Shown here piece by piece: positions 6,600 through 28,404 of a stretch of 33,156 nt of DNA. The position numbers and the translations under genes are program-made. Under the pieces are notes generated by a model. The model saw only the letters and a list, made by a program, of their open reading frames with translations, was not told the origin of the DNA and did not search any database. Numbering within the stretch: position 1 is the stretch's first letter; every line of letters begins with the position of its first letter. The stretch comes from Bacillota bacterium. GTDB taxonomy: Bacteria > Bacillota > Sulfobacillia > JAIMAT01. The stretch lies in NCBI GenBank assembly GCA_023511835.1, contig JAIMAT010000016.1:1-33156 (forward strand). The letters run 5' to 3'.

Positions 6600-6613
6600 A
6601 GGAAGGGAGTCGC

Positions 6614-8358: not shown

Positions 8359-8777
8359 CCGGCCTCCGGCGACCACTCCAGGGGGGCGGCCCGCGCCCGT
8401 CCCAGGACGGCGCGGGCCACGTCCTTCCCCAGGCAGGCCAGCCGGCGCGGGCGCCAGCGCTCGGCCAGGGCGCGGACGCGCCGTCCCCCCTCCACCATCT
8501 CCGACCAGCTCAGGTCGGCGGAACCGGGCGTCACGCGGTCGACCAGGTTGACGATGCCCAGGCCGTAGCGGGGCAGCTCCCGGTCCTGCTCCGGGCGAAG
8601 CTCGGCGGGCGTCCAGCCCGAGGCGGCCAGGAGGCGCCAGAAGCGGTTGCCCGGGCCGGCGAAGTGGTGGCCGGTGGCGCCGCTTCGACGGCCCGGGTTG
8701 TAGCCCACCACCAGCAGCGCCAGCCCCTGCGCCAGGACGGGCGGGACGGGGCGCGGCGCCGCGGGGCCGGCGCTCAC
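8217..8777 (-). CDS. Mismatch-specific uracil/thymine DNA glycosylase (Mug/TDG-type)
   Basis: Base-excision repair enzyme that removes U or T from G:U and G:T mismatches. It is 186 aa from GTG 8777, which overlaps the upstream stop (GTGA). Motif 1 is LLVVGYNPGRRSGATGHHFA followed by GPGNRFWRLLAASG; the Asn of GYNPG corresponds to the catalytic Asn of the Mug family (GINPG). Motif 2 is LPNPSARS near residue 155, matching the NPS loop. The segment RYGLGIVNLVDRVTPGSADL also fits the family. It ends a minus-strand run of overlapping genes; its 3' end overlaps the convergent reductase gene by 142 bp. Functional link to its metabolic neighbours is not evident; it is probably just co-transcribed. 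Confidence 0.85.
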   Translation of the reverse strand: MSAGPAAPRPVPPVLAQGLALLVVGYNPGRRSGATGHHFAGPGNRFWRLLAASGWTPAELRPEQDRELPRYGLGIVNLVDRVTPGSADLSWSEMVEGGRRVRALAERWRPRRLACLGKDVARAVLGRARAAPLEWSPEAGQLDCSWGRLPVACLPNPSARSTVPPELQLALWRELAAAAGAGGEAR

Positions 8778-10639
8778 GCCCGTCCCTCCAGCGCCAGGAG
8801 CAGGGCGTGGCCCAGCCAGCCGGCGCAGGTGGCGAAGGCGGCGCCGGTAGCCGCCGAGCCGTCCTCCTCCCGCACCGTCTCGCAGGCGAGGCCGCCGTCC
8901 AGGGGGGCCGCCGCCACTTCCTCGAGGCGGCGCTCCACCTCCCAGCCCGCCAGGATGTCGCTGATCGCCGCCAGCAGCCAGGGGTGGTCGGCGTGGGCGG
9001 AGCGGGGCCAGGCGAAGCGGCCGCGGGGACCGAACGGGTTGGCGGGCGAGTGGATCCAGCGCGCCGTGGCGTGCTGCACGGGGTCGCCACCCTCCGCCAG
9101 GCCGTAGTAGGGGAGGAGCATCAGGCTTCCCGCCGGCTCGTCGCCCGGCCTCCGCCCGCCGCGGCCGTCGAAGGACCACGCCCACATGGGCCCGAAGGGG
9201 CCGTCCAGCACCGCCTCGCGGCGGAGCTCCGCCAGGATCGCCTCCGCCTCCCGCCGCCTCAGGAAGGCGCCGGCGCGGTCGCCCTCGCCCTCGCGCGCCT
9301 CCGCCAGCGCGCGCCAGGCGGCCGCCGCCAGCGCCAGGTCGTAGGTGAGGTAGGGCTCCTGGACGGGGTCGTCGCTGGGGTTGAGAAACGTCCGGTAGAG
9401 CGCCCGCCCCTCCTCGCGCGCGGCCAGAAGGCGCGACTCCAGCTCCGGCAGCCGCTCGCGCACCTCGGGCTCGCGCCAGACGGCCCGGTCGCCCGTGGCG
9501 CGCGCGTAGAGCGCCGTCGCCAGCGGGAAGGCGGCCAGCTGGTCCAGCTCGAAGCCCGGGTAGAGCACGGTCCCGTCGAGGTAGAGGCTGTGCTCGCCGG
9601 CATTCCGCCCGTAGACCGCCCAGGCGGCCAGGAGCCAGCGGCGGGCCCGCGCCGGGTCGAGGCGCAGGAGGCCGGGCAGGCTCCAGAGGAGCGCGTCCCG
9701 GCTCCAGTGGGCGCCTGCCACGTAGTAGCGGGGGGAGCGCGAGGTGACCCATACCGGCTCCTCGCCGTCGAGCGTCCGCCCCGTGGCGAAGTGCAGGTTG
9801 AAGAGCAGGTTGCGCACGGCGCGCAGGGCGACGGGGTCGCTCCGCCAGCGCCCGCCGCTGGCGCGGTCGGCCCGGCTCCGGGCGGACTCCTCCGCCTCGC
9901 GCCAGAGCGCCGCGAAGCCGCGTCGCGCCAGGTGGACGGCGCCCGTCGACGCCCCGTCCGCCTCGCGCGCGACGGCCACGTAGGCGACGAGCCGCGCCTC
10001 CTCGCCGGGGGCGATGGCCGCCCGCACCGCCACCCCGGCTCCTTCCTCCCCCTCCTCCCCTCCCGGCGGCTCCAGCCTCGCCCCGGCGGGCTCGGCGCGG
10101 AAAGCGAGGGCCAGGATGGGCCCCGGGCGGGCCTCGGCCACCCAGGCGCCGGTCCAGCGGTCGAGGGCGCCCTCCACCCGGCCCCCGCCGGGGCGGCTGC
10201 GCAGTGCGGCGTAGGCGGGGGCGGCCAGCGACCAGCGGAGCCCGAGCTCCACGTCGCCGACCGAGCCGCCCGGGGCGCGGGCGGAGAGCGCCAGCGCGAA
10301 GCCCCGCTCCTCCTCCGGCGCCACGATCTCCCAGAGGAAGTTCCAGCCGCCCGCCTCGCCCGCCAGGCGGAGGGCCCAGAGCGGCCCCTCCGGCCAGCTG
10401 CGGGGGCGCCAGCGGACGGGGAGCGGGCGCCCCTCCAGGCGGATCTCGGGCAGGACCAGCGGCCGGCCGCCCGCGCCCCGCCACTCCAGCAGCCCCGCCA
10501 GCCGTCCGTGGAGGACGCCGGCCGAGAGGACCGCGCCGTCGCCCGCGCGCACCTCGGGCAACGTCACATAGGCGTTGCCGGTCACCAGGGGCGGCTCGGC
10601 CTCCGGCAGCGCCTCCGGCGTGGTGCGGACGAGGCTCAA
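8774..10639 (-). CDS. Six-hairpin (alpha/alpha)6 glycosidase-like protein, possibly GH125-related
   Basis: A 621-aa cytosolic protein without signal peptide. The first half (about 1-260) is beta-rich with alternating LRLAGEAGGWNFLWEIV-like strands, as in the N-terminal sandwich of glycogen-debranching-type enzymes. The second half is an alpha/alpha toroid containing YYVAGAHWSRDALLWSLPGL, YPGFELDQLAAFPLATALY, FLNPSDDPVQEPYLTYD and SLMLLPYYG. The WSRDALLW and PSDDP/FELDQ segments remind me of family GH125 alpha-mannosidases and of debranching enzymes, but I cannot assign substrate or catalytic acids with confidence. The TTG at 10639 overlaps the upstream stop as TTGA. It is in one run with PlsC-like and penicillin-acylase-like genes, which does not reveal its job. 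Confidence 0.65.
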   Translation of the reverse strand: MSLVRTTPEALPEAEPPLVTGNAYVTLPEVRAGDGAVLSAGVLHGRLAGLLEWRGAGGRPLVLPEIRLEGRPLPVRWRPRSWPEGPLWALRLAGEAGGWNFLWEIVAPEEERGFALALSARAPGGSVGDVELGLRWSLAAPAYAALRSRPGGGRVEGALDRWTGAWVAEARPGPILALAFRAEPAGARLEPPGGEEGEEGAGVAVRAAIAPGEEARLVAYVAVAREADGASTGAVHLARRGFAALWREAEESARSRADRASGGRWRSDPVALRAVRNLLFNLHFATGRTLDGEEPVWVTSRSPRYYVAGAHWSRDALLWSLPGLLRLDPARARRWLLAAWAVYGRNAGEHSLYLDGTVLYPGFELDQLAAFPLATALYARATGDRAVWREPEVRERLPELESRLLAAREEGRALYRTFLNPSDDPVQEPYLTYDLALAAAAWRALAEAREGEGDRAGAFLRRREAEAILAELRREAVLDGPFGPMWAWSFDGRGGRRPGDEPAGSLMLLPYYGLAEGGDPVQHATARWIHSPANPFGPRGRFAWPRSAHADHPWLLAAISDILAGWEVERRLEEVAAAPLDGGLACETVREEDGSAATGAAFATCAGWLGHALLLALEGRA

Positions 10640-11226
10640 CCCTCCACCCCCCCGCGCAGCGGCTCGCCGATCCCCGCCAGGCGGCGGAGACGCCGGCGCA
10701 TGGCCTCCACCTCGGCCGCCACGCGCGCCGCCACGCGCCCGTGGTCGGCCGCCTCCTCGCGCGAGAAGCGGAGCGGCTTGCCGAACCAGACCCAGGCGCG
10801 CGACGGGAAGGGCTGGTTGGTCCCCTCCACCGCCACCGGCACCACCGGCGCGCCGCTGTGCTCCACCAGGAAGCCCACCCCCTGGCGCGGCCTGAGCGGT
10901 ACCCCGCTGCGGCTGCGCGTCCCCTCGTAGTGGACGCCCACCACGCCCCCCTCGCCGAGGACGCGGAGCGACTGCCGCATGGCGCCCGGGTCGGCCCGGC
11001 TGCGGTCGACGGGGATGGCGAAGACGCCGACCACGGGGCCCACCAGCGGGTAGCGCAGCAGCTCGCGCTTGGCGATGAAGTGCACCCGGCGCGGGCAGAC
11101 GACGGCGATCAGGACGGGGTCGGCGGCGCTGATGTGGTTGGCGGCCAGGATGACGGGCCCCCGGGCGGGCACGTTCTCCCATCCGTAGACGCGGCTCCTG
11201 TACCGCAGCCAGAGGGCGGCGCGCAC
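10636..11226 (-). CDS. plsC: 1-acyl-glycerol-3-phosphate acyltransferase (PlsC-like)
   Basis: Membrane-associated acyltransferase that adds an acyl chain to lysophosphatidic acid in phospholipid synthesis. Motif I is NHISAADP (HxxxxD, H and D catalytic), motif II is near IPVDRSRADP, motif III is YEGTRSRSG (usually PEGTRS, so Tyr replaces Pro), and motif IV is APVVPVAVEG. The GTG at 11226 is the first ordinary start in frame but has no ribosome binding site and leaves out family-like upstream residues (ERLYALLKPP). The real start may be a CTG at 11250 or 11265, behind the GAGGAGGG that follows the upstream stop. From 11226 it is 196 aa, somewhat short for the family, which supports an upstream start. 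Confidence 0.8.
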   Translation of the reverse strand: MRAALWLRYRSRVYGWENVPARGPVILAANHISAADPVLIAVVCPRRVHFIAKRELLRYPLVGPVVGVFAIPVDRSRADPGAMRQSLRVLGEGGVVGVHYEGTRSRSGVPLRPRQGVGFLVEHSGAPVVPVAVEGTNQPFPSRAWVWFGKPLRFSREEAADHGRVAARVAAEVEAMRRRLRRLAGIGEPLRGGVEG

Positions 11227-11271
11227 GGGCGGTTTGAGGAGCGCGTACAGCCTCTCGCGGAGCAGCCCTCC

Positions 11272-13395
11272 TCACCTCCCGCCGCGCGCCCGGGGGCGCA
11301 GGATCTGCCGGACGGTGCCGCGGCGCGAGGCGACGCGCACCGGATCCAGCTCGAAGCGGTGCAGGACCGCCCCCGCCCCCTCGCGCAGCCCCTCGTCGAG
11401 GCGGACGCCGCCGGGTCCGCCGCCCGCCCCGCCGAGAAGGCGTCCCTCCAGGTGGTCGGCGGCGCCCAGGTCGGCCACCATGCTCCAGACCGCCCCGGCC
11501 GTCACCAGGAAGGGCCGCGCCGGGTCGGCCACGGTCGCCTGCAGGGTGGTCTCCGACCCGGGCAGCGCCTGGGGCCCCCGCGGCGCCCGCGCCGGGCGGA
11601 CGGGGAACTCCTCGGCCCGCTCCGGCGGCTGCAGGACGTGCAGGCGGCCCCAGCGCCAGCGCCCGGGCTCCGGCCCCTGCCTCCGCTCCAGCCAGGCCAC
11701 CGCACGCCGGAAGGCGGCCGGGAGCTCGGCCAGGCTCTCCGGGCTCCCGACGAGCAGGCGGGCGGCGCCGGCCGGCGCGGCCAGGGCGCGCAGCCGGTGG
11801 AGCCGCAGCCGTTCGGGCAGCCGGCCGCCGTCCAGCGCCGCGGCCAGCTCGCAGAGCAGGAGGTGCCAGAGGGCGGGGGCCGCTTCCTCGGTCCCCTCGG
11901 GCGCGCCGGCGGCGACCCAGGCCTCCACCAGCGCCAGCGCCTCCGCCTCGCGCGCCGTCCAGGCCTCGCCCCGCAGCACCGGGGCCATGCGCGGCCAGAG
12001 CCGGACCGGCAGGGGGTCGTGCAGGTCCGCCAGCAGCTCCGCCATGCCGCCGGCCGACCAGTCGTCGCGGGCGCGGAGCAGCTCCACCAGGCGGTCGTAG
12101 CGGACGCTGCCCCGCACCCAGGAGGGCCGCCCCAGGCCGTCCCCCTCCCCCCCCTCCAGCACGGGCTGGCCGGCCACCGCGATCCAGGCCGCCTGCGGAT
12201 CCTCCACCGCCGGTACCGACTCCCGCGGCGACGGGCCGCCCGGTCCCAGCAGCCGGTAGAGGATGTGGTCCGCGCGGTCGGCCGCCACCAGGTGGAGGGG
12301 GCCGGGGGGCGCCTCGGCCAGGAAGTCCGCCAGCTGCCGGGCGCTCTCGGCGCGCAGGCCGCGGAGAAGGCCGGCCAGGCGATCCCTCGGTGCCAGCCCC
12401 GGCCACTCCAGGCAGAGGGGGCCCAGGTAGCGGCTCAGCGCGTCGTCCAGAGCCACCGCCGCGGTCCCGGGGGCCGCCCTCCCGAGCCGCAGGTGCGCGC
12501 CGCCCGGCCCCGCGGGCACCGCCAGCCAGGCGACGGCCGGGTTGCGCCCGGCCCAGAGGCCGGGCAGTCCGGCGAGGGCGACGCCGGCGGCGTTGATGCG
12601 GCCGTCCAGGCTGACCAGGTGGACGGGGTGGAGGAGCGGCGGCAGCCGCAGCGGCAGCTCCAGGCTGCCGGCCAGGAGCGGCCGCCCCCCCTGGGCGCGC
12701 CGCCCCGCCACGGCCCAGGCCACGCCGCCGCGGCTCCCCGGCCAGCCCGTGCCCGTGCGCAGGAGGAGATCGGCCAGGTCGAGCGCCGCCTCCAGCGTCT
12801 CGCCGCGCTCGGCCAGCCGGGTGGAGAGCTCGACCAGCTCGCCGTAGATCTGCCCTCCCTCCAGCCACCAGGCGAAGAGCCGCTCGACGGCCAGCGAGTC
12901 CTCCACGCTCCAGGGCCGGAAGAGGCCGGGCCCCGACAGGCGGAGGCCCGGCCCGGCGCTGCCGGCGGCGAGGGCGGCGTTGACGCCGTCGGCGTAGGCC
13001 TCCAGGGCCAGGCGGCTCTCCGGGCCGAGGCGCGCGGCCGACTCGCGCGCCACCCGGCGGAGGTCGAGGGTGCGCATCCAGCGGTCGAGCGGCCGCGCCG
13101 CCGGGCCGTCGAGCTCGGCCAGGCGCCCGTCGACCCAGCGCCGCAGCCGCTCCAGCTGCCAGAGCCGGTCCTGGGCGGTGCAGTAGCCCTGGGTGAAGAA
13201 GAGGTCCCAGTCGGTGCGCGCGATGACGTGCGCCCAGCCGCGGGCGTCGCGCGCGATCTCTGCCTCGGAGTCGAGGCCGGGCAGGCTCCGGTTCATGCCG
13301 GCGCGGCGCAGCCAGCGCTCGGTGGCCGCCACCAGCAGCCCGGCGGCCCCCGCCGTCACCCATCGCGACAGCCCGCGTGCCTCCCCCATCGCCAC
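11272..13395 (-). CDS. Penicillin acylase family protein (Ntn-hydrolase fold), divergent nucleophile region
   Basis: A 707-aa homologue of penicillin G acylases and acyl-homoserine-lactone or cyclic-lipopeptide acylases. The alpha-chain region is clear: IARDARGWAHVIARTDWDLF, FTQGYCTAQDRLWQLERLRR, GRLAELDG and LEAYADGVNAAL (residues 47-142). The linker and beta-chain start are unusual. Where the family has G-S-N-x-W with Ser as self-cleaving nucleophile, residues 219-230 read PGSRGGVAWAVA, so Ser221 is four residues too far from the Trp, and the following NDPH is replaced by GSLELP (243-248). PGLWAGRNPAVAW still follows (278-290). A hydrophobic segment (15-24) may be a weak signal anchor. GTG 13395 or ATG 13389 could start it. 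Activity is therefore doubtful; it may be an inactive or differently processed member. Confidence 0.75.
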   Translation of the reverse strand: MAMGEARGLSRWVTAGAAGLLVAATERWLRRAGMNRSLPGLDSEAEIARDARGWAHVIARTDWDLFFTQGYCTAQDRLWQLERLRRWVDGRLAELDGPAARPLDRWMRTLDLRRVARESAARLGPESRLALEAYADGVNAALAAGSAGPGLRLSGPGLFRPWSVEDSLAVERLFAWWLEGGQIYGELVELSTRLAERGETLEAALDLADLLLRTGTGWPGSRGGVAWAVAGRRAQGGRPLLAGSLELPLRLPPLLHPVHLVSLDGRINAAGVALAGLPGLWAGRNPAVAWLAVPAGPGGAHLRLGRAAPGTAAVALDDALSRYLGPLCLEWPGLAPRDRLAGLLRGLRAESARQLADFLAEAPPGPLHLVAADRADHILYRLLGPGGPSPRESVPAVEDPQAAWIAVAGQPVLEGGEGDGLGRPSWVRGSVRYDRLVELLRARDDWSAGGMAELLADLHDPLPVRLWPRMAPVLRGEAWTAREAEALALVEAWVAAGAPEGTEEAAPALWHLLLCELAAALDGGRLPERLRLHRLRALAAPAGAARLLVGSPESLAELPAAFRRAVAWLERRQGPEPGRWRWGRLHVLQPPERAEEFPVRPARAPRGPQALPGSETTLQATVADPARPFLVTAGAVWSMVADLGAADHLEGRLLGGAGGGPGGVRLDEGLREGAGAVLHRFELDPVRVASRRGTVRQILRPRARGGR

Positions 13396-17284: not shown

Positions 17285-18156
17285 CCCGTCCCCCCTCCCG
17301 GCATCAAGAAGCCGAAGCCCCCCACCTCCACCCGCAGTGCGCCCTCCTGGCCCGCCGCCGCCCCCTCCGGAGCGCCTCGCGCGGCTCGCTCGCGCGCCTG
17401 CTCGAAGGCGGCGCGCAGCTCCTCCAGCATGCTCGGCGACTGGGCAACCAGGTCGTGGCCGCCGAAGAGCGCGCGCACCCCGTCCAGCGCCCGCAGGCGG
17501 TCGAGGCTGCGCGCGTAGGCGTCCAGGTCGGCCTCCGCCTCCTGGAGCCAGAGAAGCCCGCCGCGGTAGGCCAGGTCCGCCGGGAAGAGCCAGCCCTCCG
17601 GCTCCACCAGCAGGCTGAGGCTGCCCGGCGTGTGGCCGGGCGTGTGCAGCAGGCGGGCGCGCCGCCCGCCCAGCTCCAGCACCCCCTCCTCCGCGGCGCC
17701 CGCCGCCAGGGGCGCCAGGTGGCCCTCGCCGGGCAGGTCCTCCGGGGCGAGGCGGCCGCGGCGCACCTCCTCCTCCAGCGCCCGGCGGAGCCACTCGCCC
17801 GGCTCGCCGGCGGCCAGCGCCGCCGCATCGGCGGGATGGGCCAGCACCTCCCGCACGCGAGGGGCCAGCCGCCGCGCGCCGCCGGCGTGGTCCCAGTGCG
17901 CATGGCTGACCACCACCGTCAGGGGCAGGTCGCAGAGAAGCGCGACCACCGCCTCCAGCGGCCCGACGCCGATGCCGCTGTCGAAGAGCAGCGCCCGGCG
18001 CTCGCCCGCCACCAGAAAGGCGTTGACCCACTCGACGCCCCACTCGCCGGTCCGCCCGATCGGCTCCGCCAGGCGCCAGAGCCCCCGCTCCAGCGGTTCC
18101 ACGACGCCCCAGGAAGTGAGCCAACGGAGCGCCGCCTGGCTCGATCCGGCCGTCAT
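17281..18156 (-). CDS. Metallo-beta-lactamase-fold hydrolase
   Basis: A 291-aa cytosolic protein with the metal-binding signature SHAHWDHAGG (His85, His87, Asp89, His90). The later ligands are in LLHTPGHTPGSLSLL, FPADLAYRGG and FGGHD. These are the hydroxyacylglutathione-hydrolase-type order, so a thiolester hydrolase or another general MBL enzyme fits better than an antibiotic lactamase. The N-terminal WGVVEPLERGLWRLAEP and WVNAFLVAGERRALLFDSGI are common to the family. The ATG at 18156 overlaps the S41 protease stop (ATGA) and its ribosome binding site GGGAGG is directly adjacent. In this run it is followed by another hydrolase with the beta-lactamase fold of a different superfamily. Exact substrate is unknown. 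Confidence 0.85.
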   Translation of the reverse strand: MTAGSSQAALRWLTSWGVVEPLERGLWRLAEPIGRTGEWGVEWVNAFLVAGERRALLFDSGIGVGPLEAVVALLCDLPLTVVVSHAHWDHAGGARRLAPRVREVLAHPADAAALAAGEPGEWLRRALEEEVRRGRLAPEDLPGEGHLAPLAAGAAEEGVLELGGRRARLLHTPGHTPGSLSLLVEPEGWLFPADLAYRGGLLWLQEAEADLDAYARSLDRLRALDGVRALFGGHDLVAQSPSMLEELRAAFEQARERAARGAPEGAAAGQEGALRVEVGGFGFLMPGGGTG

Positions 18157-19523
18157 CCTCCCGCCCCCCCGCGCAGCTGCTGTTCGAGGAGCCCGAGCGC
18201 CGCGTCCAGCTGCGGGTCCTGCCCCGGCTTGCCCATCAGCGACGTGTCCCAATTGCTGGGCGCCTTGACGGTGACGTTGGGCTGGATGCCGCCCACCGTC
18301 TGCCCGGTGCGCGGGTCGACGTGCTTGTTGATATCGCGGCCGGAGGCGGTCAGGTAGCGCTCCACGGTCAGCTTGATGCCGGTCCCGTCGGGGAAGGGGT
18401 AGATCTGCTGGACCAGGCCCTTGCCGAAGGTGCGCTCGCCGACCAGCGTCCCCACGCCCAGGTCCTGGAGCGCACCGGAGAGGATCTCCGAGGCGCTGGC
18501 GCTGGCGCCGTTGACGAGGACGGCCAGCGGCACCCCGATTCCCTTGCCGTCCCCCGGTACCGTCGCCGTCTGGCGGCGGCCGCTCCGGTCGACCGTGTGC
18601 ACGATGGGGCTCCCGCCCGGCAGGAACATGCCGGCGATCTGCTCGACGGCGTCCAGCGAGCCGCCCGGATTGTAGCGCAGGTCGAGGACCAGCGCGCGCA
18701 TGCCCTGGCCGCGGAGGCGGTCCAGCGCCTGCCGGACCAGCGGCGGAGTCTTCTCGGTGAACTGGCTGATCTGGAGGTAGCCGACGGAGCCGGGGAGCAT
18801 CTTGGACTGGACGGTGGGCACCACCACGTTGGCGCGCACCATGCGGAAGACCAGGTGCTGCACGTCATGGCCGCCCGGCAGAGGGCGGTCGACGCCCAGC
18901 ACCACGGTCGTGCCCGGCTTCCCGCGGATCATCTGCGCTACCGCATCCACGCCGGTCCCGGTCACGTTCCGCCCGTCCACCTGGACGATGCGGTCGCCGG
19001 GCCTCAGGCCCACCGGATCGCCGGGCTTGGCCCCCTCGTATGGGGTGGTGGCGCTGGGCGTCTTCGGGAAAGGCGTCTGCACCACCACGTAGCTGCCCTG
19101 CTCGGTCACCTGCACGCCGATGCCGCCGTACTCGCCGGTGGTGTCGCTGCTGAAGCTGGTGAAGGCGCTCCGGTCGAAGTAGACCGAGTACGGGTCGTGG
19201 AGGGCCGCCAGCGCCCCGCTGGTGGCGCCCGCGAGCACCTTCTGCATGTCGGGCGCGTCGACGTAACGGGTGCGGATCAGGGTGAGCGTCTGCAGGAAGT
19301 CCTGGAAGGCGGGCGTGCCCTGGAGCTGCCGCAGGGTCGCCGCGTCCTCGCTGGTGGTGGGCAGGCCGCGCAGCGCGCTGGCGAGCCGCTGGTCCGCCAC
19401 CGCGTAGCCCAGCGACCCCGCGAGCAGCGCGATCAGGAGGGCGCCGGCGACGGCCGCCCGCCACGACGGGCCGGGCCGGCGGGGAGGCGCGGGAGGCTCC
19501 TGCCCGGCGAAGGGTTGGGACAT
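18153..19523 (-). CDS. Carboxy-terminal processing protease (S41 family, CtpA/CtpB-like)
   Basis: A 456-aa membrane-anchored serine protease. Domains in order: signal anchor (about 22-44, WRAAVAGALLIALLAGSLGY), a helical segment, an embedded PDZ domain (about 130-215, GIGVQVT, GLRPGDRIVQVDGRNVTG), and the S41 core (245-390). Catalytic residues are Ser343 inside SASASE and Lys368 in GERTFGKG. LVLDLRYNPGGSLDAVEQI is also typical. The ATG at 19523 has a GGCGGTGAG-type site. Next to ftsE, ftsX and a LytM protein, this is the standard Gram-positive order; I expect it to trim wall hydrolases or their regulators. In spore-formers, CtpB relatives also cut sporulation proteins. The gene is first in the short run with the downstream hydrolases. 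Confidence 0.9.
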   Translation of the reverse strand: MSQPFAGQEPPAPPRRPGPSWRAAVAGALLIALLAGSLGYAVADQRLASALRGLPTTSEDAATLRQLQGTPAFQDFLQTLTLIRTRYVDAPDMQKVLAGATSGALAALHDPYSVYFDRSAFTSFSSDTTGEYGGIGVQVTEQGSYVVVQTPFPKTPSATTPYEGAKPGDPVGLRPGDRIVQVDGRNVTGTGVDAVAQMIRGKPGTTVVLGVDRPLPGGHDVQHLVFRMVRANVVVPTVQSKMLPGSVGYLQISQFTEKTPPLVRQALDRLRGQGMRALVLDLRYNPGGSLDAVEQIAGMFLPGGSPIVHTVDRSGRRQTATVPGDGKGIGVPLAVLVNGASASASEILSGALQDLGVGTLVGERTFGKGLVQQIYPFPDGTGIKLTVERYLTASGRDINKHVDPRTGQTVGGIQPNVTVKAPSNWDTSLMGKPGQDPQLDAALGLLEQQLRGGAGG

Positions 19524-19579
19524 CCGCTCACCGCCTTTCGAAGACCATCATTATAGGTCCGGCCGCGCGAAGAGACGAA

Positions 19580-19606
19580 GCGGCCCCGGCCGCTCGCCGG
19601 GGCCGC
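19580..19606 (-). terminator. Terminator-like hairpin after the LytM gene
   Basis: Perfect 11-bp stem GCGGCCCCGGC (19580-19590) and GCCGGGGCCGC (19596-19606) with a 5-nt loop, 17 nt beyond the minus-strand stop at 19623. No long T-tract follows on either strand, so it may only partly stop transcription before the S41 gene. Confidence 0.6.
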
Positions 19607-19622
19607 CTCGTGCCGCCTCCCC

Positions 19623-20834
19623 CTAGCGGATGACCCTGCCCACGTAGTCCTGAGGATTGACCGGCGTCCCGTTGACGCGCACCTCGAAGTGCAGGTGCGG
19701 GCCGGTGGCCAGGCCCGTCATGCCGACCAGCCCGATCACCTGGCCGGCCGAGACCTGCTGGTTGGCCTGCACCAGGATCTGCGACATGTGGCCGTAGAGC
19801 GTGGAGATGCCGTTTCCGTGGACCAGGATGACCGTGTTGCCGTAACCCGACATCCAGCCGGCATAGAAGACGACGCCCGGCGCCGCCGCGTGGATGGGCG
19901 TCCCCGACGGGGCGGCCAGGTCCATGCCGGTATGCATGCGCCACTGCTTCAGGATCGGATGGTAGCGCGAGCCGAAGGTCGAGGTGACGACGAAGGAGCT
20001 GAGCGGCCACTCCAACACCACCGCGCCCGAGAGGCGGAGCGCCTCCTCGTACTGCCGCTGCAGGCGCTGGAGCTCCGCCTGCACCTCCTGGCTGGCTCGT
20101 TCTTCCTCGTCCAAGGCCGCCTGCAACTCGGCCGCGCTCTGCTGATACTCCAGCGTCACCTGCTGCTGCTGGGCGGTCTTCTGGTCCAGCGCCTGCTTGG
20201 CCGACGCCACCTGCCGGGTGAGCTCGCTGATCCGGGCCACCTGCTGCTCCTGCAACTGCGTCTGACGCGCCACCTCGGCGCGCTGCGCCTGCACCTGGTG
20301 GAGCAGGTCGACGTCGGCGGCCACGATGCGCTCCAGCAGCTGGAAGCGGGTGACGAAGTCGGCGAAGTTCCGCGCCGCCAGGAGGACCTCCAGGTAGGAG
20401 ACGGTCCCCGCCTCGTAGGTGGCGCGCAGGCGGTCGCCCAGCCGCTGCTGCTGGCTCTCCAGACGTGCCTGGGCCGCCGCGAGCGCCGCCTGCAGCTGGT
20501 CCAGCCGCTGCCTGGCCTGGGCCAGCTCGTTCTGGCGACGCGCCAGCTCCTGGCGCGTCACCTGGAGCTGCTGCCGGAGCTGGTTCAGCTTGCTCTGCGC
20601 CGCCGCCGCCCGGCTCTGCACCGTCGACAGCTGCTGGCGCGTCCGGCTCGCCTGCGACTGCATCTGGCTGAGCCGCTGCTGGGTGCGCTGGATCTCCTGC
20701 AGGATGGCGCCGGGGTCGCTGGAACTGGTGGAGCCCGCTCGCACGCCGGGCGCGGGAGCGAGCACCGCCAGTGCCAGCAGGAGCGCCGCCAGCCCGCCGG
20801 CCAACCAGTTCCTTCCTCGCTGTAGGCCTCGCAT
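19623..20834 (-). CDS. Coiled-coil LytM/M23 peptidase, FtsEX-associated wall hydrolase or activator
   Basis: A 403-aa exported protein. The signal peptide (about 8-33) is followed by two long coiled coils (about 40-135 and 170-265) and a C-terminal M23 domain (about 280-400). The zinc and catalytic residues are all present: His301 and Asp305 (HTGMD), His349 (YGHMS), His380 and His382 (GPHLHFEV). It therefore looks like an active endopeptidase, unlike E. coli EnvC, which lost these residues and only activates amidases. The coiled-coil part is the segment that docks on FtsX in such proteins. Directly downstream of ftsE and ftsX in the same orientation, it is the probable effector of that complex. 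The ATG at 20834 follows GGAGGAGAGG. B. subtilis CwlO-like roles are the nearest comparison. Confidence 0.9.
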   Translation of the reverse strand: MRGLQRGRNWLAGGLAALLLALAVLAPAPGVRAGSTSSSDPGAILQEIQRTQQRLSQMQSQASRTRQQLSTVQSRAAAAQSKLNQLRQQLQVTRQELARRQNELAQARQRLDQLQAALAAAQARLESQQQRLGDRLRATYEAGTVSYLEVLLAARNFADFVTRFQLLERIVAADVDLLHQVQAQRAEVARQTQLQEQQVARISELTRQVASAKQALDQKTAQQQQVTLEYQQSAAELQAALDEEERASQEVQAELQRLQRQYEEALRLSGAVVLEWPLSSFVVTSTFGSRYHPILKQWRMHTGMDLAAPSGTPIHAAAPGVVFYAGWMSGYGNTVILVHGNGISTLYGHMSQILVQANQQVSAGQVIGLVGMTGLATGPHLHFEVRVNGTPVNPQDYVGRVIR

Positions 20835-20909
20835 CCTCTCCTCCTCCGCCTCCGCGGCTCCGCCCCCCGCGCTACGCACTCGCGCCCGCGCGCTCCGCCG
20901 GCGGCCGGC

Positions 20910-22473: not shown

Positions 22474-22652
22474 CGACGACACCTCGGTAACTGGACGGGG
22501 TGGGCCGGCGGTTACGTTGCCGTAAAATGGGCGCACAGAAGCGGCCCACGACTAGCGCTTTTCGACGCCTGGAGGACAAGTCCTGTCCATGCGGAGCCGT
22601 TTCTGTCGACCAATTCCAGGATCGCCAGGCTTTCGTCAACACCTTTCGCCGC
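22474..22652. other. Divergent intergenic region between ftsE and the glycosyltransferase
   Basis: A relatively AT-rich 179-bp gap. It holds TAAAAT (22523-22528, plus strand), a good -10 without a matching -35, and TTGACG on the minus strand (22639-22634), a good -35 without a matching -10. A small hairpin, GGACA-AGTCC-TGTCC, lies at 22573-22587. Promoters for both directions are expected here but I cannot place them. Confidence 0.35.
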
Positions 22653-23957
22653 ATGACATGGAACGCGCCGGCAGGTGAGCGGGCGAAGCCGGCCGTAGCA
22701 GGAGACGGAAGGAGGGGAGGATCCGCGAAGGCACCCGGCGGCGCCGGTTCCCCCGAGCTCACGCGCACGGACGCCAGCCCGGCCGCACCGGGCCCGCGTC
22801 GCGTGCTCCTGGCCGCCATGGCGCTCGACCTGGGCGGGGCCGAGACGCACGTGGTCAGTTTGGCCCGCGCCCTGCGACGGCGCGGTCTGGAGGCGGAGGT
22901 GGTCTCCGGTGGCGGCCGGCTGGTGGCACGGTTGGCAGAGGCCGGCATCCCGCATCACTTCCTGCCGCTGGCCAGCCGTCAGCCCTGGCGGCTGGCCAGC
23001 GCGGTGAAGGGCCTGCGGGCGCTGGTCCGCCGGCGGGGTATCGAGCTGGTCCACGCCCACGCCCGCATCCCCGCCTGGGTGGCCGACCACGCGCTGGCAG
23101 GCAGCGACGTCCCCCTGGTCACCACCTACCACGGCCTCTACCAGGGCGGCTGGTTCTGGCGGCGCGTCACCCGCTGGGGAGAGCTGGTCATCGCGGTCAG
23201 CGAGGACGTCCGCGACCACCTGGTCCGACGCCTGGGCGCGGACCCCTCGCGCGTGCTGGTGATCCCCAACGGCATCGACCTGCAGGAGTACGCCCCCGCC
23301 TCCGCCACGCCGGCGCCGGCGGGCCTCGACCTGCCCGCGGACGCTCCCCTCGTCCTGCACGTCAGCCGGCTGAGTGAGTTCACGGAGACGGCGCTGGCCC
23401 TGGCCGAGGTCGCGCCGCGGTTGGCCGCCGAGGTGCCCGGCGCCCGCGTCCTGGTGGCCGGCGCGGGCCACGCGCTGGAACGGGTGCGCCGGGCGGCCGA
23501 GGAGGCCAACGCGCGCGCCGGGCGGACCGTGGTGGAGGCGCCGGGGGCCCGCCAGGACGTCCCCGCCCTTTTGCTCCGCGCCTGGCTGGTGGTGGCCGTG
23601 GGACGCTCGGCCCTGGAGGCGATGGCGGCCGGCCGCCCGGTGATCATCTCCGGCAACGGCGGTTACGGCGGCATCTTGAGCGAGGAGCGACTGGCCGACT
23701 TCGAGGCCCGCAACTTCACCGCCCGCGGCTTCGGCCGGCCCATCGAGGCCGCCAACCTCCTCCCCGACCTGCTCCGCCTGCTGCGCGACGAGCCGCTGCG
23801 CCGGCGCCTGGGGGCACTGGGACGCGAGACGGTCCACCGGCGGTATTCCGTGGAGCAGACGGCCGCCCGGGTGGAGGAGGTCTACCGCAGGGCCGTGGCG
23901 GCACGCGCCGGGCGCGCGCTGGCCGGCGGGACGAGGGGGGGCGCGGGGAAGCCGTGA
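22653..23957 (+). CDS. GT4-family glycosyltransferase
   Basis: A GT-B glycosyltransferase of about 435 aa if it starts at ATG 22653. The conserved part begins at about 22800 (RVLLAAMALDLGGAETHVVS), with LVTTYHGLYQGGW, VSEDVRDHLVRRLGADPSRV and LVIPNGIDLQEY. The acceptor end has AGAGHALERVRRAAEEAN and VVAVGRSALEAMAAGRPVII; note GRSALEAMA where the family often has EGFGLTxLEA, a form I recall in CsaB-linked enzymes. The first 50 residues are low-complexity. A strong SD-like AGGAGGGGAGG at about 22710-22720 is not followed by an in-frame start, so the true start remains open. The csaB start overlaps the stop (GTGA), so both probably act on the same wall polymer. No signal peptide. Confidence 0.82.
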   Translation: MTWNAPAGERAKPAVAGDGRRGGSAKAPGGAGSPELTRTDASPAAPGPRRVLLAAMALDLGGAETHVVSLARALRRRGLEAEVVSGGGRLVARLAEAGIPHHFLPLASRQPWRLASAVKGLRALVRRRGIELVHAHARIPAWVADHALAGSDVPLVTTYHGLYQGGWFWRRVTRWGELVIAVSEDVRDHLVRRLGADPSRVLVIPNGIDLQEYAPASATPAPAGLDLPADAPLVLHVSRLSEFTETALALAEVAPRLAAEVPGARVLVAGAGHALERVRRAAEEANARAGRTVVEAPGARQDVPALLLRAWLVVAVGRSALEAMAAGRPVIISGNGGYGGILSEERLADFEARNFTARGFGRPIEAANLLPDLLRLLRDEPLRRRLGALGRETVHRRYSVEQTAARVEEVYRRAVAARAGRALAGGTRGGAGKP

Positions 23958-25069
23958 GCCGGGTGGTGGTGGCGGGGTACTACGGCTTCGGCAACACGGG
24001 CGACGAGGCGCTCCTCACCGCCATGGTGGACGCGCTCCGCGCTGAGCTGCCGGGGGTGGATCTGGTCGTGCTCTCCGCCCACCCCGAGGCGACGCGCCAA
24101 GCCCTGGGCGTGGAGGCCGTGGACCGCTGGAGCCTGCCGGCGGTGCGGCGGGCGCTGGCCGGAGCCGACCTCTTCATCTCCGGCGGCGGCAGCCTGTTGC
24201 AGGACGCCACCAGCTTCCGCTCGCTCCTCTATTACGCCGGCCTCATCCTCTGGGCACACCGCCTGGGGCGTCCGGTGATGATCTACGCCAACGGCATCGG
24301 CCCGCTGCGCACCCGCCTGGCACGACGACTGGCGCGCGAGGCGCTGGCCGCCGCCACGCGCGTGACGGTACGGGACAGCGGCTCGCTCCACCTCCTCCAC
24401 CAGCTGGCCCCGGAGGTGGCGGCGCGGGCGGAGCTCACCTCCGACCCGGCCGTCGCCCTGGAACCGCTGGAACCGGCGCCGGCGCGCGCTCTGCGCTCGG
24501 AGCTGGGCCTGGGCGGGGGTCCCCTGGCGCTCTTCTGCGTCCGTCCCTGGCGGCCCTCGCCGCGCTCGGAGGAGGCGGTGGCGCGGACCGCCGACCACCT
24601 GGCGGAGCAGGGCCTCGAGGTGGCCTTCGTCCCCATGCAGCTGCCCGGCGACCTGGCCGCCGCGCGCTCCATCGCCGCCCGCTGCCGCCGGCCGGTCCGC
24701 CTGGTCGAGCGCCTGCTGCCGCCGCGCGCTTTTGCATCGCTCGTCGGCCAGGCCGACCTCCTGGTGGCCATGCGCCTCCACGCCCTCATCCTCGCCTTTG
24801 CGCGGCGCGTCCCCTCCGTGGGGCTGGCCTACGACCCGAAGGTGGAAGGCTTTCTCCGGGACGTCCGCCTGCCCACGCTGGGCCCCTGGGAGGCGCTGGA
24901 GGCGGAGCCGCTGATCGCGGCGGTCGATACCCTGCTGGACCGGCGGGAGGAGACCGTCGCCGCCCTGGAGGAGCGGCTCGCCCGCGCCCTGCCGTTGGCC
25001 CGCCGCAACGCGGTCATCGCTGCGCAGATGGTCGGGGACCCCGCGCGCCCCGTCTCCCGGCTCGGCTAG
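23954..25069 (+). CDS. csaB: Polysaccharide pyruvyl transferase CsaB
   Basis: Adds a pyruvate ketal from PEP to the secondary wall polymer that SLH domains bind, and so is needed to hold the S-layer on the cell. The 371-aa product starts at GTG 23954, overlapping the glycosyltransferase stop. Signatures: VVVAGYYGFGNTGDEALLTA at the N-terminus, FISGGGSLLQDATSFRSLLY (about 75-95), NGIGPL, and MRLHALILAF near residue 275. These match the CsaB branch of the PS_pyruv_trans family. The partner in this window is the SLH-GH18 protein at 3762-5402. The gene is cotranscribed with the glycosyltransferase, and a PBP gene follows 89 nt later with its own ribosome binding site. Confidence 0.92.
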   Translation: MSRVVVAGYYGFGNTGDEALLTAMVDALRAELPGVDLVVLSAHPEATRQALGVEAVDRWSLPAVRRALAGADLFISGGGSLLQDATSFRSLLYYAGLILWAHRLGRPVMIYANGIGPLRTRLARRLAREALAAATRVTVRDSGSLHLLHQLAPEVAARAELTSDPAVALEPLEPAPARALRSELGLGGGPLALFCVRPWRPSPRSEEAVARTADHLAEQGLEVAFVPMQLPGDLAAARSIAARCRRPVRLVERLLPPRAFASLVGQADLLVAMRLHALILAFARRVPSVGLAYDPKVEGFLRDVRLPTLGPWEALEAEPLIAAVDTLLDRREETVAALEERLARALPLARRNAVIAAQMVGDPARPVSRLG

Positions 25070-25158: not shown

Positions 25159-28100
25159 ATGCGCGAAAGCGGGGGTCGGACTCCCGGTTCGCTTCCTGGC
25201 GGGCGCCGGAACGGAGGCCGCGGCGGCCGGTCGGAGGGAGGTGCGGGGCGCGGCGGCTTCCGCCGCGCCGCCTGGACCGTTCTCTGGCTGGCCCTGGGCG
25301 CCGTCCTGGCTGTCGGCTCGGGCCTTCTCCTCTATGCCGAGGTCGGCCCGTTGCCGGGCATCTCGCCAGCGCAGCTGATGGGCGCCTCCGCCACGCTGGT
25401 TTACGATCGCAACGGCCGGGAGGTGGGCGCCCTTCCCGGGACCGCCAACCGGAAACCGGTCCCGCTGGACCAGATCGCTCCCTCCATGCAGCAGGCCATC
25501 GTGGCGGTGGAGGACCGGAACTTCTGGACGGAGCCGCCCATCGATCCGCTGGCGGTGGTGCGCGCCCTCTGGGCGGACATCCGCGCCGGCCGCATCGTGC
25601 AGGGCGGTTCCACCATCACCCAGCAGCTGGCCAAGAACGCCGTCGTCGGCAGCCAGGTCTCGCTCTCGCGAAAGGTGCGCGAGGCGCTCTACGCCATCCG
25701 CATCGCCCGTCTCTACAGCAAGCGCCAGATCCTGGAGTTCTATCTGAACCAGGTCTACTTCGGCCACGGCGCCTACGGCGTCGAGGCGGCGGCGCAGACC
25801 TACTTCGGGAAGCCTGCCTCGCAGTTGACGCTGGCCCAGTCGGCGCTCCTGGCCGGCCTGGTCAACGCGCCTTCGGCGCTGGACCCGCTGGTCTCCGACC
25901 CGCAGCTGCGGGCCGAGCACCAGAAGCTGGCGCTGGAGCGGCGGGACGTGGTGCTGAACGCCATGGTCCGCGCCGGCGCCATCACCCCGGCCGAGGCGCG
26001 GGCGGCGGCCGCCCAGGGCTTCGCCCAGATGGGCCTGGCCAGCGAGAAACAGGCGGCCGTCTCCTATCCCTGGTTCCTGGAGTACGTGGACGTGGAGCTG
26101 GCCCGCCTCAGCGCCAGCGGAGAGCTGCCGGTCAGCCCGACGCTCCTCCACACCGGCGGTTACAAGATCTACACCACCCTGGACCCGGGCGTGCAGCAGG
26201 CGGTGGAGAGCCTCTACCAGCCGGGCCACAACGGAAGCATCCTGGGCGCGCTCCGGGCGGATCGCAACCTGGATTCCTCCACCGTCGTGCTCGATCCCAG
26301 GAACGGCGCCGTGCGGGCTATCTACGGCTCCTACCAGACGGCCAACCCCTTCAGCCAGGGGTTCGTCCCCGCCTGGTCGGGCGCCATGCAGCCCGGTTCG
26401 GCCATCAAGCCGCTGACGGTCTACGGGCCCGCCCTGGACGTGGGCAAGCTGACGGTGGTCTCCCAGGTCTCCGACGCCAGCGACGTGGTGGCCGAGGGGG
26501 CGCCTGTGCGCAACTACCCGGGCGACCCCTACCTGCCGCTGGTGCCGGTCAGCCGGGCGATCGGCGCCTCCTTCAACGTCTCGGCGGTCTGGACGCTCCA
26601 GCAGATCGGCGCCTCCACCGCATCGCGCTACGCCCAGGCCTTCGGTATCCTCAGCGGCCCCGGCGACAGCCAGGACTGGAACAACCCGCGCCGCCTGGCG
26701 CTGGGCGACCTGGACCGCGGCGTCAACCTGCTGCAGATGGCCGGCGCCTATACGGCCTTCGCCAACGGCGGCCTCCGCTCGGAGCCCTTCGCCGTGGAGC
26801 GCGTCGTCGGGCCGGAGGGGAACGTCCTCTACCAGCACCAGCTGGTCCAGAAGCAGGTGGTCCAGCCGTCCACGGCCTACCTGATGACCTACCTGCTCCG
26901 CTTCCCGCTCCTGCCGCCCGACGGGACCGCCCGGGGAGCCGCCGCGCAGACCGGCGTCGGCCCCGACTGGCCGGCGGCGGGCAAGACGGGTACGGCCAGC
27001 CGCGCGCTCCCCTCGGGCGGCACGTCCACCGGCCACGTCTGGTTCTGCGGCTACACGCCGGAGCTGGTGGGCTGTTCCTGGATCGGCCTCTGGCGCCCGG
27101 ACCAGGGCCGCTGGCCGAGCGGCATCACGAGCGACAGCGCGGCGCAGCTGCTGCTCGAGGTCTTCCGCCAGATGGGGCGGCCCTCCCGCGGCTTCGCCGT
27201 CCCCCCCAACGTGGTGGTGGTCGACGGCGTGCCCTTCGTCAAGGGGACGGTGCCGGCCGGCTTCCTGCTCGGGCAGCAGAACGTGATCCAGGGGACGGTG
27301 GCTGCGGTCTCGTCGCTCTCGCTGACGCTGGACACCACCCTGGGGCCGGTGGACGTCCCGCTGGCTCCGGGCGCGGTGGCGGTGGGACCCGGGGGGAGCG
27401 GAGACGTTCCCTCGCTGGTCCAGGTGGGCGATAGCGTCACCGTCTGGCTCTCCAACGGCCAGGCGGTGCTGGTGGTGGACGCGCAGGGAAAGGGAAGCCT
27501 CTCCCTGAGCGGCACCCTGGACGCGCTAAACGCCACGCAGGTGACGCTCACCCTGGCGGGAGGAGGCCAGGTCACGCTCCCCCTGGCGCCTGATGCCGCC
27601 GTCACCGCCCAGGGCCAGCCCGTCGACCCGGCCCAGGTCCTGCCGGGTGCTCCCGCCGTCGCCCAGCTGGACGCCTCGGGGCGCGTGACGGCCCTGGACC
27701 TGACGTTGGCCGCCACCCCGGGCACCAGCGGCACCATCGTCTCGCTGGAGGCCGGCAGTCTCGTCTTCAGCCCCGCCTCGGGCGGCGGCCCCGAGATCCT
27801 GACCCTGGACCCGCAGGTGCGTGTGACGCTGGACGGCCAGCCCTCCAGCCTTGCGGCGCTCCGGCCGGGGATGGCCGCCACCCTCCTCACCGACCCCCGC
27901 AGCGGGGCGGTGACCGCCATCGAGGCCTCGTCGGGCGGTCCGTCCGGCGCGCCGGCGGGCGGCTCCGCCACCCAGGGCGCCACGCTCAGCGGCTGGCTGG
28001 TGGGGACGTCGGGCGGGGAGCTGCTGCTCTGGAGCGGCGGCTCGCTCCAGCAGGCGACGCTGGCGCCGGGGGCGCGGATCAGCTTCGACGGCCTGGCCGT

Positions 28101-28404
28101 CTCGCCCGACCAGCTGGCCGCCTACGTCGGCGAGCAGGCGACGCTCGCCCTGGACGCCGGCGGGCAGGCCAGCCGGGTGGCGCTCAGCCAGCCGCCCGGG
28201 CAGCTCTCGGGCGCGGTGGCCGGCCGCCGGGGGTCGACCCTCCTCCTCCAGGCCGGGCAGCAGCCGGTCCAGGTGGACTTGGGCGCCTCGCCCGTGGTGG
28301 TGGCGGGCGGTCAGCTGGCCGGTCTGGGCGTGCTCAAACCGGGCGTGCAGGTGGTGGTGGACCCGGGGGTGGCCGGTGCCTCCGCCCTGGTGGTCCTCCG
28401 CTGA
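25159..28404 (+). CDS. Class A penicillin-binding protein with five-repeat C-terminal extension
   Basis: Bifunctional peptidoglycan polymerase and crosslinker, 1081 aa. A Gly/Arg-rich cytosolic tail (1-35) and one membrane helix (38-60) come first. The GT51 transglycosylase covers about 75-250: Glu118 in VEDRNFW, GGSTITQQLAKN (149-160), and RIARLYSKRQILEFYLNQVY (181-200); the His usual after EDxxFxxH is missing (EPPIDP). The transpeptidase covers about 370-680 with Ser414-Lys417 (SAIK), Ser471-Asn473 (SFN) and Lys609-Gly611 (KTGT). Residues 712-1081 hold five imperfect repeats of about 65 residues (712-775, 784-848, 858-922, 944-1009, 1017-1081), each beta-rich with GTLxxL, LAPxxxV and LRPG-type turns. 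The ATG at 25159 has AAGGAGG 6 nt upstream. It likely needs no partner gene nearby; a hairpin follows (28411-28438). Confidence 0.9.
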   Translation: MRESGGRTPGSLPGGRRNGGRGGRSEGGAGRGGFRRAAWTVLWLALGAVLAVGSGLLLYAEVGPLPGISPAQLMGASATLVYDRNGREVGALPGTANRKPVPLDQIAPSMQQAIVAVEDRNFWTEPPIDPLAVVRALWADIRAGRIVQGGSTITQQLAKNAVVGSQVSLSRKVREALYAIRIARLYSKRQILEFYLNQVYFGHGAYGVEAAAQTYFGKPASQLTLAQSALLAGLVNAPSALDPLVSDPQLRAEHQKLALERRDVVLNAMVRAGAITPAEARAAAAQGFAQMGLASEKQAAVSYPWFLEYVDVELARLSASGELPVSPTLLHTGGYKIYTTLDPGVQQAVESLYQPGHNGSILGALRADRNLDSSTVVLDPRNGAVRAIYGSYQTANPFSQGFVPAWSGAMQPGSAIKPLTVYGPALDVGKLTVVSQVSDASDVVAEGAPVRNYPGDPYLPLVPVSRAIGASFNVSAVWTLQQIGASTASRYAQAFGILSGPGDSQDWNNPRRLALGDLDRGVNLLQMAGAYTAFANGGLRSEPFAVERVVGPEGNVLYQHQLVQKQVVQPSTAYLMTYLLRFPLLPPDGTARGAAAQTGVGPDWPAAGKTGTASRALPSGGTSTGHVWFCGYTPELVGCSWIGLWRPDQGRWPSGITSDSAAQLLLEVFRQMGRPSRGFAVPPNVVVVDGVPFVKGTVPAGFLLGQQNVIQGTVAAVSSLSLTLDTTLGPVDVPLAPGAVAVGPGGSGDVPSLVQVGDSVTVWLSNGQAVLVVDAQGKGSLSLSGTLDALNATQVTLTLAGGGQVTLPLAPDAAVTAQGQPVDPAQVLPGAPAVAQLDASGRVTALDLTLAATPGTSGTIVSLEAGSLVFSPASGGGPEILTLDPQVRVTLDGQPSSLAALRPGMAATLLTDPRSGAVTAIEASSGGPSGAPAGGSATQGATLSGWLVGTSGGELLLWSGGSLQQATLAPGARISFDGLAVSPDQLAAYVGEQATLALDAGGQASRVALSQPPGQLSGAVAGRRGSTLLLQAGQQPVQVDLGASPVVVAGGQLAGLGVLKPGVQVVVDPGVAGASALVVLR

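Follow-up and report, generated by a model that had tools for sequence, protein, structure and literature searches.

There is no agreed account of how bacteria match their S-layer to the growing wall. New S-layer appears in Caulobacter crescentus and Clostridioides difficile mainly at sites of new peptidoglycan insertion, according to the available part of PMC12337289, and self-assembly at lattice defects is argued in the accessible text of PMC6588578 to be able to guide S-layer growth. The window analyzed here, a 33,156-nucleotide stretch of DNA from a Bacillota bacterium, encodes a penicillin-binding protein (PBP) that ends in a long repeat array. It raises the question of whether a wall synthase can itself be tied to the surface coat.

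The gene (25159..28404, + strand, as are all features of the window below) encodes a class A PBP of 1081 aa with a C-terminal OB-repeat array. Two Pfam domains scored over the cut-off on the single chain, the arrangement that defines class A: Transgly (PF00912; E 7.2e-62, 208 bits) at residues 87-269 (25417..25965) and Transpeptidase (PF00905; E 7.1e-29, 101 bits) at residues 374-635 (26278..27063). The transglycosylase motifs E118-D119, GGSTITQQ (149-156), and RKxRE (171-175) and the transpeptidase motifs SAIK (414-417), SFN (471-473), and KTGT (609-612) were unchanged across three species of the genus. The catalytic motifs had been called complete in the preliminary description, and this was confirmed; the protein is probably a bifunctional class A enzyme whose motifs look intact. 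A hydrophobic stretch judged by eye, at residues ~39-61 (25273..25341), is the probable membrane anchor. Full-length orthologues occur in two further species of the genus at 79% and 71% identity, and no SLH domain was matched in any of the three array PBPs.

The tail covers residues 708-1081 and consists of five tandem modules of 69-76 residues each. These are R1 (708-779; 27280..27495), R2 (780-851; 27496..27711), R3 (852-927; 27712..27939), R4 (941-1012; 27979..28194), and the terminal cap R5 (1013-1081; 28195..28401). A Gly/Ser/Ala/Pro-rich linker of 13 residues, variable in length and sequence, separates R3 from R4 (928-940; 27940..27978). The modules are supported by repeat HMMs and, for R3, also by the tail model. 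Five repeats of about 65 residues at 712-1081 had been proposed; the number held, and the units proved longer, with the array starting at residue 708 (base 27280), four residues earlier. The array had also been said to double the outer part of the protein. The 374-residue tail adds only about 60% to the remaining ectodomain, taken as about residues 62-707 with the anchor placed by eye.

The repeats were compared with those of SLH proteins using an HMM whose training set was 12 repeats from three such proteins and no PBP sequence. This HMM scored the tail at 97.7 bits over five domains (R1-R4, 14.6, 39.9, 32.4, and 19.3 bits; R5, partial, 9.4 bits), compared with a best score of 12.6 bits among the 1930 of 2000 shuffles that scored and -3.6 bits for the reversed tail. 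In a profile comparison by hhalign, PBP repeats matched SLH-protein repeats with a probability of 98.2 and a score of 72.0, and the best of 200 column-shuffled controls reached 9.5.

Two module types were distinguished. When repeats from the three species were scored singly, R1-R4 gave 28.6-60.3 bits with the internal-repeat HMM (R1 of this protein, 33.7 bits) and at most 14.6 bits with the cap HMM. R5 gave 35.3 bits with the cap HMM here and 46.4 and 49.7 bits in the two orthologues, while it still scored 19.3-33.3 bits with the internal HMM. All matches of R1-R4 to the internal type and of R5 to the cap type were above the shuffles (n = 1200; best 11.4 bits internal and 8.5 bits cap, with 1199 giving a cap score). 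The cap set comprised eight sequences; for one of them (L066), the ORF is truncated before it reaches any SLH domain. The cap type of R5 also terminates array proteins in three other families. These profile scores show the PBP tail to be a complete array of the type found after SLH domains, with four internal modules and a terminal cap.

The relation to known families was then limited to the profile level. Searched against the tail and against each repeat alone (E up to 1), the Pfam DUF5666 model (PF18914) gave no match. By hhalign, DUF5666 aligned with the repeat profile at a probability of 90 and a score of 40 over 65-66 of 73 columns (controls at most 10.3) when 15 of the 19 fetched over-cut-off regions were used; with all 19 the score was 39.9, and the best of the 98 of 100 controls that scored was 7.3. 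The tail repeats are apparently related to DUF5666 at the profile-to-profile level only. DUF5666 matches over the cut-off were found in SLH proteins bearing such repeats (L113, L116, L125, L128, and L133). PASTA and FN3, known PBP tail domains, matched neither the tail nor single repeats (Pfam, E up to 1). No Pfam or NCBIfam model exceeded its cut-off on the tail; two sub-threshold Pfam lines, RodZ_C (E 0.056) and Prot_ATP_ID_OB_C (E 0.03), were disregarded. Sequence searches of the PDB with the tail profile (best E 0.18) and a 27-row repeat profile (best E 0.046) returned unrelated partial matches and no credible relative.

The single-repeat model of R2 (pLDDT 90.7) was a five-stranded OB-like barrel. 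In the tail model, residues up to the end of R1 were below pLDDT 50, which leaves sequence as the one line of evidence for the fold of R1; elsewhere the models gave an OB-like fold. The earlier suggestion of an OB-like or DUF5666-type unit therefore stands for the predicted fold and the profile-profile comparison, and fails at the level of a direct Pfam match. For R4, the best VIA fold match was 9fs9_A (Z 9.1, 72 residues, 2.7 A). In the S-layer of Viridibacillus arvi, this domain makes up the four-fold axis, as far as the accessible text of PMC11410804 describes it. For the R2 single model, 9fs9_A (Z 7.8) and CusF (Z 8.1) were tied, which the tool rated as possibly just a common arrangement, and Foldseek alone gave no match for a single repeat at E 0.001 or better. 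The 27-row repeat profile found no sequence link to 9fs9_A. The PBP modules, as modelled, may share with this self-assembly domain (PDB 9FS9; SymProFold, available part of PMC11410804) a small OB-like barrel on a surface protein, but with no sequence relation found and CusF scoring as well the likeness of the PBP tail is at the fold level only. CusF-like copper binding, considered because CusF is a top fold match, was rejected because R1-R5 have a single Met and lack His and Cys altogether.

The hosts of related repeats were collected with the tail profile in the class outside the genus. Among the matches listed, 51 of 66 host ORFs carried SLH domains, 12 lacked them, and three were truncated; none was a PBP. 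The class search scored the best 11 candidates or fewer per genome, so that these counts may miss further hosts. To call SLH domains, a local HMM was made from 13 such domains of this genome. Among the 12 hosts without SLH domains, one has masked letters, and whether these hosts are secreted or membrane-anchored was assessed by eye. Duplicate host rows were dropped (L071 = L149, L055 = L075, L066 = L193, L146_3 = L067, L087 = L192, and L081 = L191), and L056, which came from a separate search, was left out. With 12 of 66 hosts lacking an SLH domain, occurrence of the repeats is not confined to SLH proteins. In a wider phylum sample of 398 genomes, with the best four candidates or fewer scored per genome (E up to 1e-6), a further three hosts came from outside the class, all with SLH domains; this is a weak test. 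The tail modules thus appear to reside otherwise mainly on surface-coat proteins of related bacteria.

In this genome, an SLH protein on contig C40 (about 6417-7823) bears repeats of this type and a cap. Each of the three species of the genus has an SLH protein with three repeats of this type, a cap being the last. A cap module was also marked at the end of several SLH proteins. The SLH proteins with OB arrays (that of C40, families f38, f43, and f44, and others of the class) share the repeat profile and the internal and cap types with the PBP. Like the PBP, they place the envelope anchor N-terminally and the array distally, whereas their anchor is made of SLH domains without a PBP enzyme and that of the PBP is probably a membrane helix, joined to a wall synthase. 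In the cap tree most forks were open, and the f38 caps formed a separate, more distant group (100/97). The pairwise closest cap outside the PBPs was one of family f44, not that of the genus's own SLH protein. The cap sequences give no clear sign that the fusion stems from the latter.

The array was found in three of 82 class A PBPs read, all three from this genus. The best domain in these three scored 50.8-52.5 bits, compared with at most 5.2 bits in the other 79, which include the six other class A PBPs of the genus. This census covered 82 distinct ORFs from 90 loci, a part of the PBP matches, and one ORF was cut at the C-terminus. In a smaller motif-filtered census, 43 of 50 loci were read, and R5 of the window PBP fell below the 8-bit threshold used. 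Class A PBPs of the class with other tails, such as cupredoxin-like or Pro/Gly-rich ones, share the catalytic core; cupredoxin domains were over the Pfam cut-off in three of four PBPs tested. In the available text of open-licence papers, a PBP whose tail is of the SLH or DUF5666 type was not found described. The fusion of a PBP with an SLH-type array is well shown by these comparisons.

The PBP neighbourhood is kept in all three species. The polysaccharide pyruvyl transferase gene csaB (23954..25069; TIGR03609, 282 bits against a cut-off of 213) ends with its stop 89 bp upstream of the PBP start codon, an adjacency kept in 3/3 species. Each of the three draft genomes yielded a single csaB copy, in this genome the one next to the PBP gene. 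A family 4 glycosyltransferase gene (22500..23957), identified by Pfam and synteny, overlaps csaB by four bases. The csaB adjacency and the array fusion may be a single event in one lineage. Pyruvate has a role in the binding of wall polymer by SLH domains, and OB folds bind sugars in other proteins. With csaB and the glycosyltransferase gene directly upstream and a basic R5 (pI 10.7 in this species) facing an anionic polymer, the modules might target peptidoglycan or a pyruvylated wall polymer made with the csaB product. We consider this improbable: R1-R4 are acidic (pI 4.1-4.3), and R1-R3 and R5 have zero or one aromatic residue each (R4 has four), a scarcity that speaks mildly against classical sugar stacking. 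The wall-polymer binders reported in the available part of PMC6081394 are SLH domains, not repeats.

Conservation differed along the array. Conservation is highest in R1 (85-96% identity between species, dN/dS 0.12-0.18); its dN/dS is at or below that of both catalytic domains in the same species pairs, and conservation falls further out. The distal repeats evolve fast, and R4 is the least conserved (51-53% identity, dN/dS 0.46-1.02). The gradient would fit a regulatory handle, in which R1 and perhaps R2 control the enzyme, either by lying against the transpeptidase domain or by binding an activator, and the outer repeats merely decorate the protein. This explanation is improbable, and it leaves unexplained the whole SLH-type array with its cap, kept in three species. 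The looser constraint on R3-R5, the variable linker at 928-940, and the wide range of repeat numbers on SLH proteins (2-11 detected) are what would be expected of a passive spacer. On this account a stiff arm of interchangeable barrels sets how far the enzyme or its end extends into the wall with no specific partner, and the array was taken over simply because arms of this sort were available. A spacer does not need a terminal cap, yet R5 retains the cap signature, and the conservation of R1 equals that of the catalytic domains; we regard the spacer as unlikely.

The reading that we prefer, with a rough probability of 45%, is that the synthase docks to the SLH/S-layer coat through a borrowed S-layer-type arm. 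The five repeats found by a PBP-free HMM, the SLH-type cap, and the restriction of array PBPs to this genus among the 82 read count for it, as do the hhalign match to SLH-protein repeats, the capped SLH protein of each species, and the fold match of R4 to 9fs9_A. The suggested S-layer link is supported circumstantially by the prevalence of the repeats on SLH proteins (51/66 among the matches listed), the cap, and the csaB neighbour. Several results count against docking, namely the fast evolution of R4, as expected of a loosely constrained spacer, the fold-level nature of the 9fs9_A match, the 12 of 66 hosts lacking SLH domains, the chance that csaB adjacency and fusion go back to one event, and the position of the genus's own SLH cap, which is not the closest. 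S-layers can also grow by self-assembly at lattice defects, as stated in the accessible part of PMC6588578.

In the docking mechanism, the N-terminal anchor would keep the enzyme in the membrane while glycan is polymerised and cross-linked in the wall. The array would reach outward with the polarity of the SLH proteins, the cap lying farthest from the anchor, and the strongly conserved R1 may pack on the transpeptidase domain. The distal modules and cap would contact whatever the caps and modules of the SLH protein contact, most simply those coat modules themselves. A synthase tethered in this way could make wall synthesis and coat insertion simultaneous; alternatively, the array might keep the coat at a fixed height. 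It is possible, if doubtful, that the PBP is itself a coat component whose array and cap co-assemble with the SLH-OB protein; one polypeptide would then run from the membrane synthase to the coat and couple wall and coat growth directly.

The C-terminal ends of class A PBPs vary widely inside one class, from cupredoxin-like and Pro-rich ends to an OB array. The array suggests, and does not prove, a physical tie of wall growth to the surface coat. A synthase with a coat-type array and cap would make such a physical link directly testable using two purified proteins.

The class A PBP is encoded by an ORF of 1081 residues at 25159-28404 on the forward strand. Both the Transgly and Transpeptidase domains scored over the Pfam cut-off, and the catalytic motifs, reported as complete in the preliminary description, were confirmed to be so and were invariant across the three species (the genome under study and two sister species of its genus). 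The transpeptidase domain was followed by a short junction and five tandem modules, R1 (residues 708-779), R2 (780-851), R3 (852-927), R4 (941-1012) and R5 (1013-1081), with a short linker between R3 and R4. None of these modules matched a family over cut-off in the Pfam or NCBIfam scans.

A repeat HMM built from 12 repeats of three SLH proteins, with no PBP sequence included, detected five domains in the tail (97.7 bits in total), the fifth being partial at 9.4 bits. The best of the 1930 shuffles that scored, out of 2000, reached 12.6 bits, and the reversed tail gave -3.6. The five tandem repeats proposed earlier were thus borne out. They diverged strongly from one another (24-36% identity to R2). 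In a profile-profile comparison, the PBP repeats aligned with the SLH-protein repeats at a probability of 98.2 and a score of 72.0, with 200 column-shuffled controls at or below 9.5.

The single-repeat model, based on ten aligned rows, had a pLDDT of 90.7 and a pTM of 0.74. Its predicted strands span residues 3-12, 16-20, 26-39, 54-59 and 65-70, with a short helical turn after the third. This is the order of an OB fold, so the OB-like fold suggested initially held. The whole-tail model, based on two aligned rows, had a mean pLDDT of 66.9; most ten-residue blocks of R2-R5 lay at 60-89, and the linker and everything from the start of the model through R1 were below 50. Matches of the repeat models by Foldseek and VIA-align were mainly OB folds, with no Foldseek match at E 0.001 or better for the single repeat. 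For R4, VIA-align placed first the Viridibacillus arvi S-layer self-assembly domain, 9fs9_A (Z 9.1 over 72 residues at 2.7 A); with R2 alone this domain ranked third at Z 7.8, level with CusF (8.1). Because the repeat profile did not recover 9fs9_A by sequence, the modelled likeness points to a common fold and does not imply homology.

The tail repeats had also been likened to DUF5666-type barrels. Kinship stood and membership did not, since the Pfam DUF5666 model had no match in the tail, whereas the alignment between DUF5666 regions of the class and the repeats of the PBP spanned 65-66 columns at a probability of 90 and a score of 40 (the best of 199 controls reached 10.3, and the best of 98 reached 7.3 when all 19 fetched over-cut-off regions were included), and over-cut-off DUF5666 matches occurred on SLH proteins also bearing such repeats (loci L113, L116, L125, L128 and L133).

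In three families of array proteins (f38, f43 and f44), the last repeat was a special type, or cap, reaching the C-terminus and often ending in GSALLV or GSLLLV. A cap profile was made from eight caps, of which seven belong to ORFs that have SLH domains and one to an ORF truncated before reaching any, and an internal profile from 44 internal repeats; the best shuffles scored 8.5 and 11.4, respectively. Against the cap profile, R5 of the three PBPs scored 35.3, 46.4 and 49.7 bits and R1-R4 at most 14.6, while against the internal profile R1-R4 scored 28.6-60.3 and R5 19.3-33.3. Some R1-R4 cap scores exceeded the best shuffle, as is expected from the sequences of one family. The split was sharper in the SLH protein of the genus, in which the first two repeats were internal and the third was a cap (38.6-47.8 versus 1.8-10.6). 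By these scores, the tail of the PBP is a complete array with a proper end rather than a random succession of beta hairpins.

Across the 154 genomes of the class, with at most 11 candidates scored in each, the tail profile matched (E up to 1e-3) in at least 51, including the three of this genus. Outside the genus, the matches fell on at least 66 host ORFs: 51 carried SLH domains, 12 had neither SLH nor PBP motifs and appeared by eye to be secreted or membrane-anchored, 3 were cut short with neither motif seen, and none was a PBP. Among the hosts without SLH domains, family f6 (L191, L192 and L178) appeared membrane-anchored by eye and family f7 (L164, L181 and L189) secreted. A phylum sample of 398 genomes, scored more coarsely, added at least three hosts outside the class at E up to 1e-6, each of which has SLH domains. 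The genome itself encodes one SLH protein of this type, which combines three SLH domains with three of the repeats and is retained in both sister species.

Among 82 distinct class A PBPs examined in the class, three bore the array, with best domain scores of 50.8-52.5 bits and at most 5.2 in the other 79. All three came from this genus, to which the fusion is limited among the PBPs examined, and formed a single clade with full support and a long stem in a tree built on 43 PBP cores. The two further class A PBPs of the genome have tails of other kinds. Separately, a cupredoxin-like domain forms the C-terminus of several other class A PBPs in the class (L009, L020, L033 and also L027), and of the four such tails tested, three matched PF13473 over cut-off; L104, L106 and L107 look alike by eye, the second PBP of this genome (G000:C12) has a tail of similar appearance, and one literature search listed no report of a cupredoxin-PBP fusion.

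The csaB gene ends 89 bp upstream of the PBP start and was identified by TIGR03609 (282 bits, cut-off 213). Its product pyruvylates the wall polymer bound by SLH domains. Of the 154 class genomes, 105 had a csaB match at E up to 1e-20. The three species have one copy each and all keep the order glycosyltransferase-csaB-PBP-mobA-transketolase. By eye, from contig positions among the matches listed, no csaB directly adjoining a PBP was seen in the other 58 relatives, many of them fragmented and some without csaB. What the analysis shows is a class A PBP, its motifs complete, in fusion with a whole SLH-type OB array that ends in a cap, encoded beside csaB. On the reverse strand of the window lie an SLH protein that also has a glycoside hydrolase family 18 domain (3762-5402), a 1529-residue ORF whose GH125-like match is confined to residues 1320-1520 near the C-terminus (8774-13363), and a CtpB-like S41 protease adjoining an M23 peptidase that bears a PcsB-like coiled coil (18153-20879); this last pair lies within a few kilobases of the PBP and is kept in both sister species.

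The array would point outward and dock on the SLH/S-layer coat, a reading to which we assign a probability of roughly 45%. Binding of polymer by the array is improbable. The modules contain no His or Cys, which argues against copper binding, and 0 or 1 aromatic residues each in R1-R3 and R5 (4 in R4), a scarcity that argues against classical sugar stacking. Between species, R1 equalled the catalytic domains in conservation (85-96% identity, dN/dS 0.12-0.18), and identity was lower further out (R2 69-81%, R3 58-72%, R4 51-53%, R5 55-70%); R1 may therefore make a constant contact, possibly to the transpeptidase domain, and the outer modules may drift in the manner of exposed modules. That the array is a passive spacer is less likely than docking, and that it is a regulatory handle is the least probable reading. 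Docking on the coat would make a direct link between wall and coat. Such a link, if true, would matter because passages of one report describe S-layer growth that, in some bacteria, coincides with growth of the wall (PMC12337289), and passages of another argue for self-assembly as the route of S-layer growth in Caulobacter (PMC6588578).
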